This document shows positions 12,016 to 40,221 of a DNA stretch of 64,000 nucleotides, piece after piece. The stretch is taken from the NCBI GenBank assembly GCA_017889635.1, contig JAGGAC010000017.1:1-64000 (forward strand). Reading direction: 5' to 3'. The position numbers and the translations under genes are program-made. The stretch is from Bacillota bacterium. Lineage in GTDB: Bacteria > Bacillota > Negativicutes > Sporomusales > CTSoil-080. Position 1 is the stretch's first letter. Every line of letters starts with the position of its first letter. The notes under the pieces are model-generated. The model was not told the origin of the DNA and searched no databases. It saw nothing but the letters and a program-made list of their open reading frames with translations.

Positions 12016-12300
12016 ATGACCAGAAGAAAACGGCGTGAATTTACAGATGAATTTAAAAATCAGATGGTTCAACTGTATCTGAGCGGTAAGCTCCGATCCG
12101 AGATAATCAAGGAATACGATTTAACAGAGACTGCCTTTGATCGTTGGGTAAAACAGAGTCAGTCAACCGGTTCCTTCCGCGAAGCAGACAATCGCAGTGT
12201 CGAAGAAAACGAACTCATTAAACTTCGTAAGGAAAATCAGCGTCTCAAGATGGAGAACGATATACTAAAGCAAGCAGCGCTGATCTTAGGACGAAAGTAA
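12016..12300 (+). CDS. IS3-family transposase OrfA
   Basis: 94 residues: a helix-turn-helix DNA-binding domain (about 5-55, with the RREFTDEFKNQMV opening typical of IS3 OrfA) followed by a leucine-zipper-like coiled coil (about 65-90) used for oligomerisation with OrfAB. Its last codons (CGA AAG TAA) contain an A-AAG sequence where a -1 shift would enter the orfB frame and yield the OrfAB fusion transposase. That frameshift is inferred from the family, not shown. Confidence 0.9.
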   Translation: MTRRKRREFTDEFKNQMVQLYLSGKLRSEIIKEYDLTETAFDRWVKQSQSTGSFREADNRSVEENELIKLRKENQRLKMENDILKQAALILGRK

Positions 12301-12302
12301 AT

Positions 12303-13130
12303 GTGATCAGGCAGAATGCCCACAAGTACTCTGTATCAGCAATGTGTAACGTCCTACAGATAAATCGAAGTACTTACTATTATGAATCCATCCTCCAGCC
12401 AGCCGACAGTTCCGTGGAAGAGGCGGTCGTGCAAATCTTTGAAGACAATCGTCGAGTTTATGGGACTCGCAAAATTAAAGTTGAGTTGAGAAAGCTCGGT
12501 ATGGTTGTGTCCAGACGCCGAATCGGCAGACTAATGAAGAAAAACGGGCTAGTTTCCGCGTATACGGTGGCCCAATATAAAGTGCATAAATCGGTATGTA
12601 ATGAGGCCGGAATTCCCAATGAACTAAATCGCCAATTTCAAAAACTAACACCGCTGGAAGCCGTTGTTAGCGATCTTACTTACGTACGTGTAGCTGGAAG
12701 ATGGAACTATATCTGCCTCTTAATTGACCTATTTAACCGTGAAATCATCGGGCACAGTTGTGGCCCTGCTAAGGACGCCAAACTAGTGTACCAGGCCTTT
12801 GCTAAAGTTAAAGAGAATTTAAGCAATATACAGCTTTTTCATACCGACCGCGGTCGCGAATTCAAGAACGAGTTGATAGATAAGGTAATCGAGACTTTCC
12901 AGATTAAGCGGTCGCTTAGTATGAAGGGCTGCCCATATGACAATGCCGTATCTGAAGCAACCTACAAGTTGGTCAAGTCTGAATTCGTCAGAATCAGGCG
13001 TTTTGAGACTCTTGAACAGCTCAAACGGGAACTGGATGACTATATTCAATGGTTTAATGAAAAACGAATTCATTCTACTTTAGGCTATCTTAGTCCGCAT
13101 CAATTCAAGTCCCTTAACAAAACTGTCTAG
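12303..13130 (+). CDS. IS3-family transposase OrfB (DDE integrase core)
   Basis: 275 residues. A HTH_21-type segment (VYGTRKIKVELRKLG) precedes the DDE catalytic core: first Asp in VSDLTYV, second in HTDRGREF, and the Glu in NAVSEATYKLVKSE. The frame opens with GTG at 12303, three bases after the orfA stop, in the -1 frame. The protein may be made alone or, more usefully, as an OrfAB fusion by frameshifting. The length is normal for the family and no disruption is seen. Confidence 0.92.
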   Translation: MIRQNAHKYSVSAMCNVLQINRSTYYYESILQPADSSVEEAVVQIFEDNRRVYGTRKIKVELRKLGMVVSRRRIGRLMKKNGLVSAYTVAQYKVHKSVCNEAGIPNELNRQFQKLTPLEAVVSDLTYVRVAGRWNYICLLIDLFNREIIGHSCGPAKDAKLVYQAFAKVKENLSNIQLFHTDRGREFKNELIDKVIETFQIKRSLSMKGCPYDNAVSEATYKLVKSEFVRIRRFETLEQLKRELDDYIQWFNEKRIHSTLGYLSPHQFKSLNKTV

Positions 13131-13392: not shown

Positions 13393-14658
13393 ATGAAAGA
13401 CGAACAGGCTGCAAGACTTCCACTTCATGTTTTACCGGAAGCTGGCGAAATAAAGGCCAAGGCTAAAGGTATTTTTAAGTACCTTGGTCCAGCATTTGTT
13501 GTCAGTGTTGCATACATGGACCCAGGTAATTTTGGTACGAATATCGCAGGAGGAACGCAGTTCGCCTACGAGCTTATCTGGGTTATATTATGGAGTAACC
13601 TTATGGCAATTTTCGTCCAGACGTTATCAGCTAAATTGGGAATTGCAACAGGGCTTAATTTACCTGAACATTGTGGGCTTGCTTTCTCGCGACCAGTCAA
13701 CTGGGGATTGTGGTCAATAGCTACTGTAGCAGCGATGGCTACAGATCTTGCAGAATTTCTTGGAGGAGTGTTAGGTTTTTATCTTTTATTCGGGATACCT
13801 ATGGTTTGGTCGGCTCTTCTTACAGGAGCAATTTCCTATGGGATTTGCCACATGCAAAAATATGGACAGATTATTGTTGAGCGCATTATCACAGTTATGG
13901 TAGCGGTGATAAGTTTGGCTTATATTTGGGAAATGTTTATCGCAAAACCTGATTGGGGACTGATTGCTTATCATACCGCAGTTCCTATACTTACTCCGGA
14001 TAGTGTGCTGGTAGCTGTCGGAATGCTTGGCGCAACAGTAATGCCTCATGTCATTTATTTGCATTCTCAACTAGTGCTACCAAGACGTACAGACTGCATA
14101 GAAGATTGTAAGCACCATTTAAAAATGGCAAAAATTGATGTATTTGTGGCGATGAATATGGCGTTTATAGTAAACGCCGCGATGGTAATTGTATCAGCTG
14201 CTGTTTTTAATGGCAATGGTCTAAACATTGATAGCATTGAAGCTGCATATATGACACTGCAGCCTTTAATGGGTAATATGGCAGCAGGAGCTTTTGGATT
14301 AGCTCTTTTGGCTTCTGGTCTATCATCATCGGCGGTTGGAACAATGGCTGGAGAAGTTATTTTAAAGGGGTTTGTGGGGTTCGACATACCATCTAGTATT
14401 CGGCGTTTAATAACGATGGTTCCGGGATTAGCGATTATATTGACTGGTGTTAATCCGCTAGAAGCACTGGTATATAGTCAAGTATCTTTAAGCTTCGCGT
14501 TGCCTGCGGCGATTATTCCGTTAATGATTGTTACCAATAAAATTGATATAATGGGGAAATTCAAAAATGGTGTCTTTACAAATACAATTGGCTGGGTTAT
14601 TGTTAGTGTGATTCTGGTTATGAATGCTGTATTAATGTACTTAACTTTTGCCAGCTAA
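13393..14658 (+). CDS. mntH: Nramp-family divalent metal (Mn2+) transporter
   Basis: 421 residues with eleven predicted membrane helices. The proton-coupled metal site is complete: DPGN at about residue 44 in helix 1 and MPHV at about residue 217 in helix 6, whose Asp, Asn and Met coordinate Mn2+ in characterised family members. MntH proteins import manganese (also iron or cadmium) into the cytoplasm. The ATG follows AAAGGGAG. The gene stands alone between an IS element and a hairpin terminator. A manganese riboswitch on the opposite strand is aimed at its 3' end, suggesting antisense control. Confidence 0.93.
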   Translation: MKDEQAARLPLHVLPEAGEIKAKAKGIFKYLGPAFVVSVAYMDPGNFGTNIAGGTQFAYELIWVILWSNLMAIFVQTLSAKLGIATGLNLPEHCGLAFSRPVNWGLWSIATVAAMATDLAEFLGGVLGFYLLFGIPMVWSALLTGAISYGICHMQKYGQIIVERIITVMVAVISLAYIWEMFIAKPDWGLIAYHTAVPILTPDSVLVAVGMLGATVMPHVIYLHSQLVLPRRTDCIEDCKHHLKMAKIDVFVAMNMAFIVNAAMVIVSAAVFNGNGLNIDSIEAAYMTLQPLMGNMAAGAFGLALLASGLSSSAVGTMAGEVILKGFVGFDIPSSIRRLITMVPGLAIILTGVNPLEALVYSQVSLSFALPAAIIPLMIVTNKIDIMGKFKNGVFTNTIGWVIVSVILVMNAVLMYLTFAS

Positions 14659-14689
14659 GCTTAATTACAATAGAGTATAATTGTCCTTT

Positions 14690-14740
14690 TTCGCAAGGTT
14701 TATAGTTTGCGGCAAATTAACTATAAACCTTGCGAATTTT
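14690..14740 (+). terminator. intrinsic terminator of mntH
   Basis: A perfect 18-bp stem (14690-14707 with 14719-14736) and an 11-base loop are followed by TTTT. On the minus strand the hairpin is followed by A residues, so it should not stop transcription arriving from the riboswitch. Confidence 0.75.
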
Positions 14741-14758
14741 CTGGGGAGAAAATCATAA

Positions 14759-14800
14759 GAGACCTTTATTTCCCGCTTTTTTGTGGGAAATAAAGGTCTC
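14759..14800 (-). terminator. riboswitch-controlled terminator
   Basis: A perfect 16-bp stem, reading GAGACCUUUAUUUCCC from 14800, with its complement at 14774-14759 and a 10-base loop. The 5' arm contains the 3' strand of riboswitch helix P1, so terminator and ligand-bound aptamer exclude each other. The tail UUAUGAUUUUCU is only moderately U-rich. Confidence 0.75.
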
Positions 14801-14891
14801 GCTATAGCAGAAGTACTGCCAGTAGAACCGGGCTTTCGCCAGTGTGTCGATTCTACTCACGGATTAGTCATCCGTTAGCTACTCCCCTTTA
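14791..14891 (-). promoter_or_regulatory. yybP-ykoY manganese riboswitch, antisense to mntH direction
   Basis: Reading the minus strand from 14891, the RNA shows the class hallmarks. P1 is UAAAGG pairing with CCUUUA; the conserved loop is GGGGAGUAGC. A P2 hairpin (ACGGAU/AUCCGU) follows, then a P3 arm (GUAGAA/UUCUAC) holding UCGACA and CCGG, a P4 hairpin (GCAG/CUGC), and the closing AGCGAGACCUUU. This layout matches the Lactococcus yybP-ykoY aptamer as I remember it. The class binds Mn2+ and usually turns on manganese exporters. Here nothing is encoded downstream on this strand; the transcript would run into mntH antisense. Aptamer identity is strong; the antisense role is inference. Confidence 0.88.
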
Positions 14892-14900
14892 CGGGTTATC

Positions 14901-14930
14901 ATCTTAAACCATGTGAAACAGATTAGGCAA
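14901..14930 (-). promoter_or_regulatory. candidate promoter of the riboswitch RNA
   Basis: On the minus strand TTGCCT (14930-14925), 18 bases, then TAAGAT (14906-14901) would start transcription near 14894, only a few bases before the aptamer's first P1 nucleotide. It is a moderate match to the vegetative consensus. Confidence 0.45.
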
Positions 14931-15025: not shown

Positions 15026-16417
15026 TTATTTTTTAGCTAGTGGCTGTCTAGCCAAAATGGCAGCGGCCGGGCCTTCAACTGTTAGGTCGGTAACCTGAGC
15101 CTCGGAGCCGAGACGTGCTAGCAGCGAATATACATGGGGATTTTCTACAGGCGTAGGACTGGCAGAGGATTTACTGTAAATATTAATATGTTTTGTACCT
15201 TCTTCAGGAGGTATGTTTATTCCGGGGCCGCCGACGCAACCGCCTTTACAGGCCATGCCTTCAATAAAATTCGCCTTCAGTTCGCCGTGTTTTAGCTGTT
15301 CAAGCCCTTTTTGGCAATCAGGGATACCGTCTAGTTTTACTGGAATAAAACTTTGGGCGCGTCTAGGTACAAGGTTTTTTAGGGTGGCTTCAACAGCGGC
15401 GCTAACCCCTCCTGTACGACCATAAACTCGGCCGCCCCAGGATGCCTGAGGATTTTCATCATCTTTTTCCATGGCTGGGTTGATTTCAGTTGCTTCAAAG
15501 ATGGTGGAAAGTTCCTGAAAGGTAAGAACGAAATCAACAGCACCTTTTAAATCTGGTAATAAAGCTTCGGATTTTTTTGCTATGCAGGGGCCTATAAATA
15601 CTACTTTAGCATCTTGTTCAAAGGTCTTTATAATTCTGGCGGATGCAATCATTGGTGATACTGATGGCGAAATATGTTTGAATAGTTCAGGAAACCTGTT
15701 TTCAATTAATTTAATCCATACCGGACAGCAGCAACTTGTGATTAAAAAGTCATTTTCATTTTTGACATAATGGTCAAATTCAAAGGCTTCTTTTATGGTG
15801 ACGATATCGGCGTAAAGGGCTGTTTCAACCATTTCTTTAAACCCGAGCTTTAGGAGAGCAGAGCGTAGTTTACCTGGAGTGACGTCAACTCCAAATTGGC
15901 CGGCAAAGGCTGGTGCTACAGAGGCATACACAGGGTGGGTTCGTTGACGCAACAGGTCAATTAAGGGCACAAGATTGGCTTTTTCGGTAAGGGCACCGAA
16001 GGAACAAGCTGCGACGCAGTGTCCTTCGCCCATGCATTTGGTGTGGTCAATTTTTACTTGTCCGAGTTCGTCGTGAGTAATAGCGGCAACTGGGCAGATA
16101 TTTTCGCAGGGGCGATTATTGCTATCGCATCTTGAGCAGGCATCTGGATTGGCTACTATAATTGGTTCGCTAGACATTCCCATCAGAGCTTCCTGGTCAT
16201 GACTACTGATTACACTATCGCTGTTGTGTGGATCTAGTCCCATTGCAATTCGGATTTGATTGGCTACATGACGACGAGTGGTTTGGTCGGCAAATTCTTT
16301 ATGGACTAGGCTACAGATTTCTTCGCGACGTTCAAAAAGCTTGCCTTCCCAAGCGGCTTTGGCTACTTGATATAGAATACGGGGCTTGATATTAAATGGT
16401 TTTGGCTGTTCGTTCAT
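15026..16417 (-). CDS. monomeric [FeFe]-hydrogenase, group B-like
   Basis: It interconverts protons, electrons and H2. The start is the ATG at 16417 behind AAAGAGGTG (463 residues). A helical N-terminus is followed by a ferredoxin-like region with two Cys clusters: CSRCDSNNRPCENICP, with unusual spacing, and CMGEGHCVAAC. The H-cluster domain has all three signatures: TSCCCPVW, IGPCIAKKSE and MACKGGCVGG. The extra Cys in the first signature resembles the group B (B1/B3) hydrogenases rather than the well-studied clostridial CpI type. No partner subunits are adjacent. Its maturase HydG lies about 28 kb away. The physiological role (fermentative H2 production or sensing) cannot be told. Confidence 0.88.
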   Translation of the reverse strand: MNEQPKPFNIKPRILYQVAKAAWEGKLFERREEICSLVHKEFADQTTRRHVANQIRIAMGLDPHNSDSVISSHDQEALMGMSSEPIIVANPDACSRCDSNNRPCENICPVAAITHDELGQVKIDHTKCMGEGHCVAACSFGALTEKANLVPLIDLLRQRTHPVYASVAPAFAGQFGVDVTPGKLRSALLKLGFKEMVETALYADIVTIKEAFEFDHYVKNENDFLITSCCCPVWIKLIENRFPELFKHISPSVSPMIASARIIKTFEQDAKVVFIGPCIAKKSEALLPDLKGAVDFVLTFQELSTIFEATEINPAMEKDDENPQASWGGRVYGRTGGVSAAVEATLKNLVPRRAQSFIPVKLDGIPDCQKGLEQLKHGELKANFIEGMACKGGCVGGPGINIPPEEGTKHINIYSKSSASPTPVENPHVYSLLARLGSEAQVTDLTVEGPAAAILARQPLAKK

Positions 16418-16505
16418 ATAAACACCTCTTTGTAAATTACAGTTTGGCATTATATGTATTATTTTATCCGTTTAGACTGTTTTCCTGTGCAATTTGATAA
16501 TAAAC

Positions 16506-39887: not shown

Positions 39888-39964
39888 TAAGATTATGTTC
39901 CAATGTATTGACATATTTAAGGACTCTTGATATTATTATAAAAAATGAGTTTTGAAATGCAATG

Positions 39965-40221
39965 AACGTGGAGAAGTAAGCTAGAGGCATTTTTCAGAGA
40001 GCCTAGGGGTGGTGAGACTAGGTAAATGCACTGACTGAAATACACCCGTGAGCAGCAGGTTGAAAGCTTTGGCGAGTAGACCGCGCCGGAATGCCTCCGT
40101 TAACATGGGCTAGGGTATCGGATTTAATCCCGTACCTGATTAAGAGCTGGCTTGTAAAAGCAAGCAGGGTGGTAACGCGGGTACTATATCCCGTCCCTGA
40201 ATTTTCAGGGACGGGATTTTT
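39965..40221 (+). promoter_or_regulatory. tyrosine-specific T-box leader
   Basis: It has the T-box elements in order: a Stem I start with AGAAGTAAG, the CAGAGAG bulge, a GGTG motif, a specifier loop GAAATACACC whose codon is TAC (Tyr, 40041-40043), and the T-box core AGGGTGGTAACGCGGG (40166-40181). The core is followed by a terminator. Uncharged tRNA-Tyr should stabilise the antiterminator and turn on aroF-tyrA. The tyrosine specificity fits the genes it controls. Confidence 0.92.
40190..40221 (+). terminator. T-box attenuator terminator
   Basis: A perfect 11-bp stem CCCGTCCCTGA/TCAGGGACGGG with a 4-base loop is followed by ATTTTTAT. The 5' arm competes with the T-box antiterminator. Confidence 0.9.

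Follow-up and report, generated by a model that had tools for sequence, protein, structure and literature searches.

Why should a manganese riboswitch lie next to mntH, the gene of a Mn2+ importer, on the opposite strand and with no gene of its own to switch? The question is raised by a 64,000-nucleotide stretch of a Bacillota genome of the class Negativicutes (contig JAGGAC010000017.1, positions 1 to 64,000; hereafter the window). A preliminary description of this DNA had proposed a yybP-ykoY aptamer on the minus strand, a terminator that shares one strand of the aptamer stem P1, and a Mn2+-gated antisense RNA that lowers mntH expression. The features of the locus are collected in Table 1.

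Table 1. Features of the mntH-riboswitch locus in the window, with the evidence for each
Feature	Position	Strand	Evidence and remarks
IS3-family transposase ORFs directly upstream of mntH	12016..13130	+	NF033516 for 12303-13130
mntH, Mn2+-uptake Nramp transporter, 421 aa, proposed antisense target	13393..14658	+	NF001923 MntH, 491 bits; PF01566
Likely intrinsic terminator of mntH	14690..14736	+	17-bp hairpin, then TTTTCT; the minus strand lacks a T run
U-rich tract after T1, UUAUGAUUUUC	14748..14758	-	Sequence; U-rich in relatives too
Terminator hairpin T1, 16 bp, putative expression platform	14759..14800	-	-26.0 kcal/mol alone; covariation over 20 sequences
Mn2+ (yybP-ykoY) riboswitch aptamer, antisense-type variant	14789..14901	-	RF00080; model R1, 130 bits (window sequence itself in the R1 training set)
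P1 3' strand, CCUUUA	14791..14796	-	Also within the 5' arm of the terminator; sequence and folding energies
L1 motif, GGGGAGUAG	14879..14887	-	Invariant in 15/15 antisense-type aptamers of the alignment
P1 5' strand, UAAAGG (antiterminating state)	14886..14891	-	Pairs with 14796-14791; same in 15/15 sequences
Promoter-like TTGCCT-N18-TAAGAT	14901..14930	-	Weak, 8/12; unlike the promoter that relatives share
Iron-only hydrogenase-like gene, upstream on the riboswitch strand	15026..16450	-	PF02906; outside the conserved unit

An ORF scan confirmed that no sense gene follows the riboswitch and that its transcript would reach the 3' end of mntH in antisense. In the interval from the terminator to the first part of mntH, no ORF of at least 30 codons begins on the minus strand, and a search for a conserved small ORF on the antisense strand across the loci found none in common. 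The mntH stop codon lies approximately 100 nt past T1 and approximately 230 nt from the riboswitch motif. The element is thus located as expected of an antisense riboswitch: it lies on the strand opposite a gene, no more than 500 nt from its 3' end and with no intervening sense gene, and the function of MntH as a Mn2+ importer fits the sensed ligand. In an excludon test, the 5 kb past mntH in the window contained no co-directional gene of at least 150 aa; the element acts like half an excludon, yet it is not an excludon.

The proposed aptamer proved to be real. A search with RF00080 matched positions 14899-14806 of the minus strand with 36.6 bits (E 2.2e-8 for the region and 3.9e-8 for the genome), which is under the curated gathering score of 45 bits. 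At Rfam gathering scores, a scan of the window missed the riboswitch and reported only a T-box; this T-box leader is located at 39953-40201 on the plus strand (109 bits). The sub-threshold score appears to be no sign of decay and the cut-off a poor divider here, since the sense copies preceding exporters in relatives mostly fall short of 45 bits too. When 60 related genomes were searched with RF00080, a single genome passed the cut-off, and nearly all other examined matches preceded exporters. Multi-genome searches with strict filters even missed true sites (G016, G038 contig C11 and G009). These were later recovered by motif and by the covariance model R1, whose training set comprised 15 antisense-type aptamers, and absence in the strict-filter searches was therefore not trusted.

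The features of the class, namely L1 GGGGAGUAG, the L3 internal loop and the P1-P4 architecture, are all present in the window element. The antisense-type variant carries an additional ACGG..CCGU hairpin and the L3 sequence UCGACA instead of UCAACA. Folding of positions 14915-14650 of the minus strand gave a z-score of -9.75, and in a strand test at locus L265 model R1 scored 120.8 bits on the riboswitch strand versus 10.7 bits on the other, suggesting that the aptamer works only as minus-strand RNA. Judged from its sequence and predicted architecture, the window element is a Mn2+ (yybP-ykoY) riboswitch, whose UCGACA variant would be expected to bind Mn2+. In this class, Mn2+ stabilises the aptamer and allows read-through by antitermination.

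Sequence and folding also bore out that the 3' strand of P1 lies within the terminator's 5' arm. As long as the 3' arm of T1 does not exist, the aptamer with a closed P1 has the lowest calculated energy; with this arm present, the hairpin wins (-69.7 kcal/mol versus -48.8 kcal/mol for the P1 state). Because T1 is far more stable once formed, switching must be kinetic, as is usual among such riboswitches. Across 20 sequences, 97.5% of the T1 cells were paired, a share that dropped to 34-59% when the alignment was slid out of register, and double-sided changes were counted in 12 cells versus 2.1 in shuffles. These values indicate that the terminator is under selection as a structure, with its pairing kept by compensatory changes. 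The tract UUAUGAUUUUC is an imperfect U tract and exists on the minus strand only. As modelled, the layout is that of a transcriptional ON switch of the yybP-ykoY class, in which a mutually exclusive terminator shares the 3' strand of P1; the ON sign is suggested by analogy to the known class and by the mutually exclusive pairing.

The element is very probably an antisense-acting, ligand-ON manganese riboswitch that provides negative feedback on manganese import. RNA polymerase would initiate minus-strand transcription shortly past the end of mntH, producing the aptamer. At low Mn2+, CCUUU would enter the terminator hairpin, transcription would end after approximately 150 nt, and mntH would be left free. 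At high Mn2+, the stabilised aptamer would hold CCUUU in P1 and block the terminator, and the read-through polymerase would continue for approximately 100 nt and enter the 3' end of mntH in antisense. The output of mntH would then be reduced by polymerase collision, by duplex cleavage or by both, and the data are compatible with either. In this scheme we infer the binding of Mn2+ by the variant, the read-through and the effect on mntH; the comparison with relatives supports a Mn2+-gated antisense RNA that would lower mntH expression, the transcript and the sign of regulation being predicted.

This comparison revealed that the variant stays at the 3' end of mntH, in antisense orientation, in the relatives. 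Among 300 genomes of the class, R1 yielded 17 matches of at least 106.8 bits, the next match scoring 71 bits. All 17 faced the 3' end of mntH or, in G007 and on contig C3 of G038, of an mntH remnant, and the lower matches that were checked were sense riboswitches, mostly in front of exporter genes (GDT1/UPF0016). Members of the training set match R1 by construction, and the evidential point is the complete link to mntH together with the score gap. G064 and later G443 were outside the training set and were found by the searches; the G061 locus is the Pelosinus record used in R1. The same 300 genomes contain 18 close mntH genes, the one of the window included, and 14 of these carry the element. 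In G073 the contig edge leaves no assessable site, hence 14 of 17 assessable genes are carriers. In nearly all intact copies the distance from the motif GGGGAGTAG to the mntH stop codon is about 200-260 nt. The element was found beside none of 49 other Nramp paralogues (at most 36% identity), and among about 105 mntH loci of greater distance, drawn from Clostridia and other phyla, only L100, G303 and G349 carried it. Taken together, the association of riboswitch and mntH appears to be conserved beyond chance across many genera and several families.

One of the Nramp paralogues has a different setting. In the genome of the window (G000:C122:8586-6302, L174) and at L188, L189 and L190, a sense manganese riboswitch, terC and a distant Nramp paralogue follow each other on the same strand. 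This paralogue behind terC, which occurs in several related genomes, is 23% identical to MntH, and its place behind an exporter gene induced by Mn invites the question of which substrate it transports.

The three exceptions among the assessable close mntH genes, G031, G067 and G093, possess a 140-aa MntR-like gene (PF01325 and PF02742) that is convergent at exactly the spot of the riboswitch. In the protein tree they are nested inside the antisense-bearing clade with 100% support, beside a carrier. The simplest history is therefore that the riboswitch was lost in one family (f12) and replaced by the MntR-like repressor gene. A c-di-GMP-I riboswitch was observed near the MntR-like/mntH locus in genomes of this family (L137 1106-1197 and L262 1198-1289). 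In the genome of the window itself, a search for the DtxR/MntR dimerisation domain PF02742 yielded no protein, the controls Escherichia coli and Bacillus subtilis being positive. The assumption that carriers always lack MntR was rejected, as DtxR/MntR-family proteins are encoded in four carriers (G005, G016, G023 and G046). In G005 (L041 5429-5854) an MntR-like gene is divergent from mntH and the antisense riboswitch is also present, which suggests that repressor and antisense riboswitch can coexist.

Most loci seem to own a promoter. In relatives, TGTCAC-N17-TATNAT is conserved, with the -10 element ending 23-28 nt before GGGGAGTAG. A match to CATANNAT at the fixed place was present in 13 of 21 loci versus 0.25 expected, and the pairwise identity among loci remained at background until approximately 40-60 nt before the motif and rose from the promoter block onward. 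The window copy is without the conserved -35 and -10 elements upstream of 14901, where the sequence is GTTTCACATGG. The promoter suggested in the preliminary description did not hold up well: TTGCCT-N18-TAAGAT is a weak match, and the promoter conserved in relatives is missing here. Between the hydrogenase stop codon and the aptamer, a search of the minus strand detected no terminator-like site, and read-through is therefore a possible supply of transcripts. Transcription of the window copy may rely on the weak promoter or on read-through from the hydrogenase gene, and transcription itself is doubtful, the least certain step for this copy.

The missing -35 and -10 elements raise the question of whether the arrangement works in the relatives and in a second copy of the same genome, with the window copy being non-functional after loss of its promoter. 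We consider this unlikely, if well conceivable. The second mntH, on another contig (L037, G000 contig C61), is 78% identical, has the riboswitch at the equivalent place and retains an intact promoter; in addition, the IS3 element upstream of the window mntH fits an inactive copy and may have altered the sense promoter of the gene. However, the aptamer (130 bits with R1, a model that contains this sequence) and the 16 terminator pairs are intact in the window, read-through can supply transcripts, and an alternative weak promoter exists.

The preliminary description had also considered a relic, that is, the riboswitch of a lost co-directional exporter gene, whose position beside mntH would be meaningless. 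Sense manganese riboswitches in these genomes do precede GDT1/UPF0016, TerC and similar genes, and mntH remnants lie beside the element at two loci (G007 and G038 contig C3). On the other hand, a full-length mntH lies opposite the variant in numerous genera from several families, the distance to the stop codon being conserved and the upstream genes changing, and the pairing of the terminator is under selection. Moreover, G004, G011, G016 and G020 carry a sense riboswitch, a GDT1 exporter gene and mntH on one strand, followed by the antisense riboswitch facing back; here the exporter has its own sense riboswitch upstream of mntH and the antisense copy is additional. Among close relatives, none with an exporter gene between riboswitch and mntH was seen. 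Relatives with the riboswitch in front of a co-directional exporter at this place would have spoken for a relic, and the comparison gave the opposite outcome, a riboswitch antisense to mntH. A variant locked to the mntH 3' end in relatives rules out the relic as a general explanation, and we regard it as very improbable for the window.

Equally improbable is an active role of the terminated RNA of approximately 150 nt, as a trans-acting or 3'-UTR-pairing small RNA that would affect mntH at low Mn2+. From the layout, the short form would be expected to be abundant under these conditions; however, it ends approximately 100 nt short of mntH, outside the coding region, and the MntR-like control of the importer in family f12 predicts repression at high Mn2+. 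The last alternative, that the element merely ends transcripts from the gene behind it and that Mn2+ tunes this boundary, agrees with the hydrogenase gene lying 126 nt upstream on the same strand in the window, but it is hardly credible and is ruled out as a general explanation, since a transcript boundary needs no sensor and the gene on this flank varies among relatives (hydrogenase, cation-diffusion facilitator, CbiM-type, Kdp-type and others) and is mostly divergent, which leaves nothing to terminate and shows the element to be bound to mntH and not to the gene behind.

The antisense-acting riboswitch extends beyond the closest relatives. In a wider search of 398 genomes of the phylum, the element was found opposite mntH in G443 (mntH 73% identical) and in G303 and G349 (51%). 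Further cases opposite mntH are the locus L100 of a metagenome-assembled genome (56%) and G467 (39%). In G565 (L295 2143-2400) an antisense manganese riboswitch lies opposite a feoB-type metal transporter gene, 212 nt from its stop codon; FeoB proteins in some bacteria can carry Mn2+. This feoB-type gene reads as two overlapping ORFs, a G domain and a membrane part. UCGACA was rejected as an exclusive mark of antisense copies: it held for 23 of 25, but sense copies with this sequence precede Na/Ca-exchanger-type genes (L278 and, by sequence, L312). In G413 (L302), a UCGACA-type manganese riboswitch with a strong terminator faces a transposase gene on the opposite strand. A search for an mntH remnant beside this element detected none, and its target was possibly displaced by an insertion.

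The chances appear about even that in much of the Negativicutes mntH is chiefly under the control of a riboswitch-gated antisense RNA instead of MntR, the two being interchangeable at the same spot. Manganese would then turn the exporter on through a sense copy and the importer off through an antisense copy, sometimes with the two copies flanking a single exporter-importer cluster, as in G004, G011, G016 and G020.

The preliminary description knew of no precedent for Mn2+ and mntH, but one exists. An antisense yybP-ykoY riboswitch was predicted at the 3' end of the Mn2+ transporter gene cthm-CFE_2050 of Carboxydocella thermautotrophica 019 (Serrano-Gutierrez and Merino 2023; PMC9943018). As presented in that survey, the case resembles ours in riboswitch class, in the position at the 3' end on the opposite strand, in the kind of target and in the proposed purpose, and it is one discussed computed case with no comparative test. 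The survey used intergenic sequences and standard models and counted five antisense yybP-ykoY elements with no enrichment (p 1.00) (PMC9943018); the Negativicutes set may have gone unnoticed there since the variant scores below the Rfam cut-off. The present set goes beyond the Carboxydocella case in its conservation across Negativicutes, the covariation of the platform, the conservation of the promoter, the replacement by an MntR-like gene and the feoB target. Hence, as far as the survey's account goes, the pairing itself had already been predicted once, and ours is the first comparative evidence found for a manganese riboswitch antisense to mntH.

Two other antisense systems are described in the same source (PMC9943018). 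AspocR of Listeria monocytogenes, a B12 riboswitch antisense to pocR, is likewise a riboswitch-controlled antisense RNA that enters the gene from the 3' end. According to this account, B12 terminates the antisense RNA (ligand-OFF) and thereby permits the target, whereas in our case the ligand would be expected to permit the antisense RNA and repress the target. The SAM riboswitch antisense to ubiG-mccBA in Clostridium acetobutylicum, as summarised there, shares the setting of antisense transcription by a riboswitch terminator and the interference with a convergent target; it differs in being ligand-OFF, in its ligand and in its target, an operon of metabolic enzymes. The sense yybP-ykoY riboswitches preceding exporter genes (GDT1/UPF0016, TerC) have the same aptamer architecture as the antisense type, and one occurs in the genome of the window before a GDT1/UPF0016 gene (L003). 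Unlike the antisense type, they lead to a co-directional exporter gene, contain UCAACA and have no additional ACGG/CCGU hairpin.

In the survey's account, antisense-acting riboswitches have so far comprised two experimentally described cases and a series of computed predictions. The present set adds a device retained opposite one target gene in many genera, its platform and promoter being conserved and its predicted ligand-ON logic the reverse of the earlier cases. It also includes a natural exchange of the riboswitch for a protein repressor, and a second importer as target. It makes the class testable by simple experiments, and it would explain how manganese uptake is restrained in bacteria without MntR.
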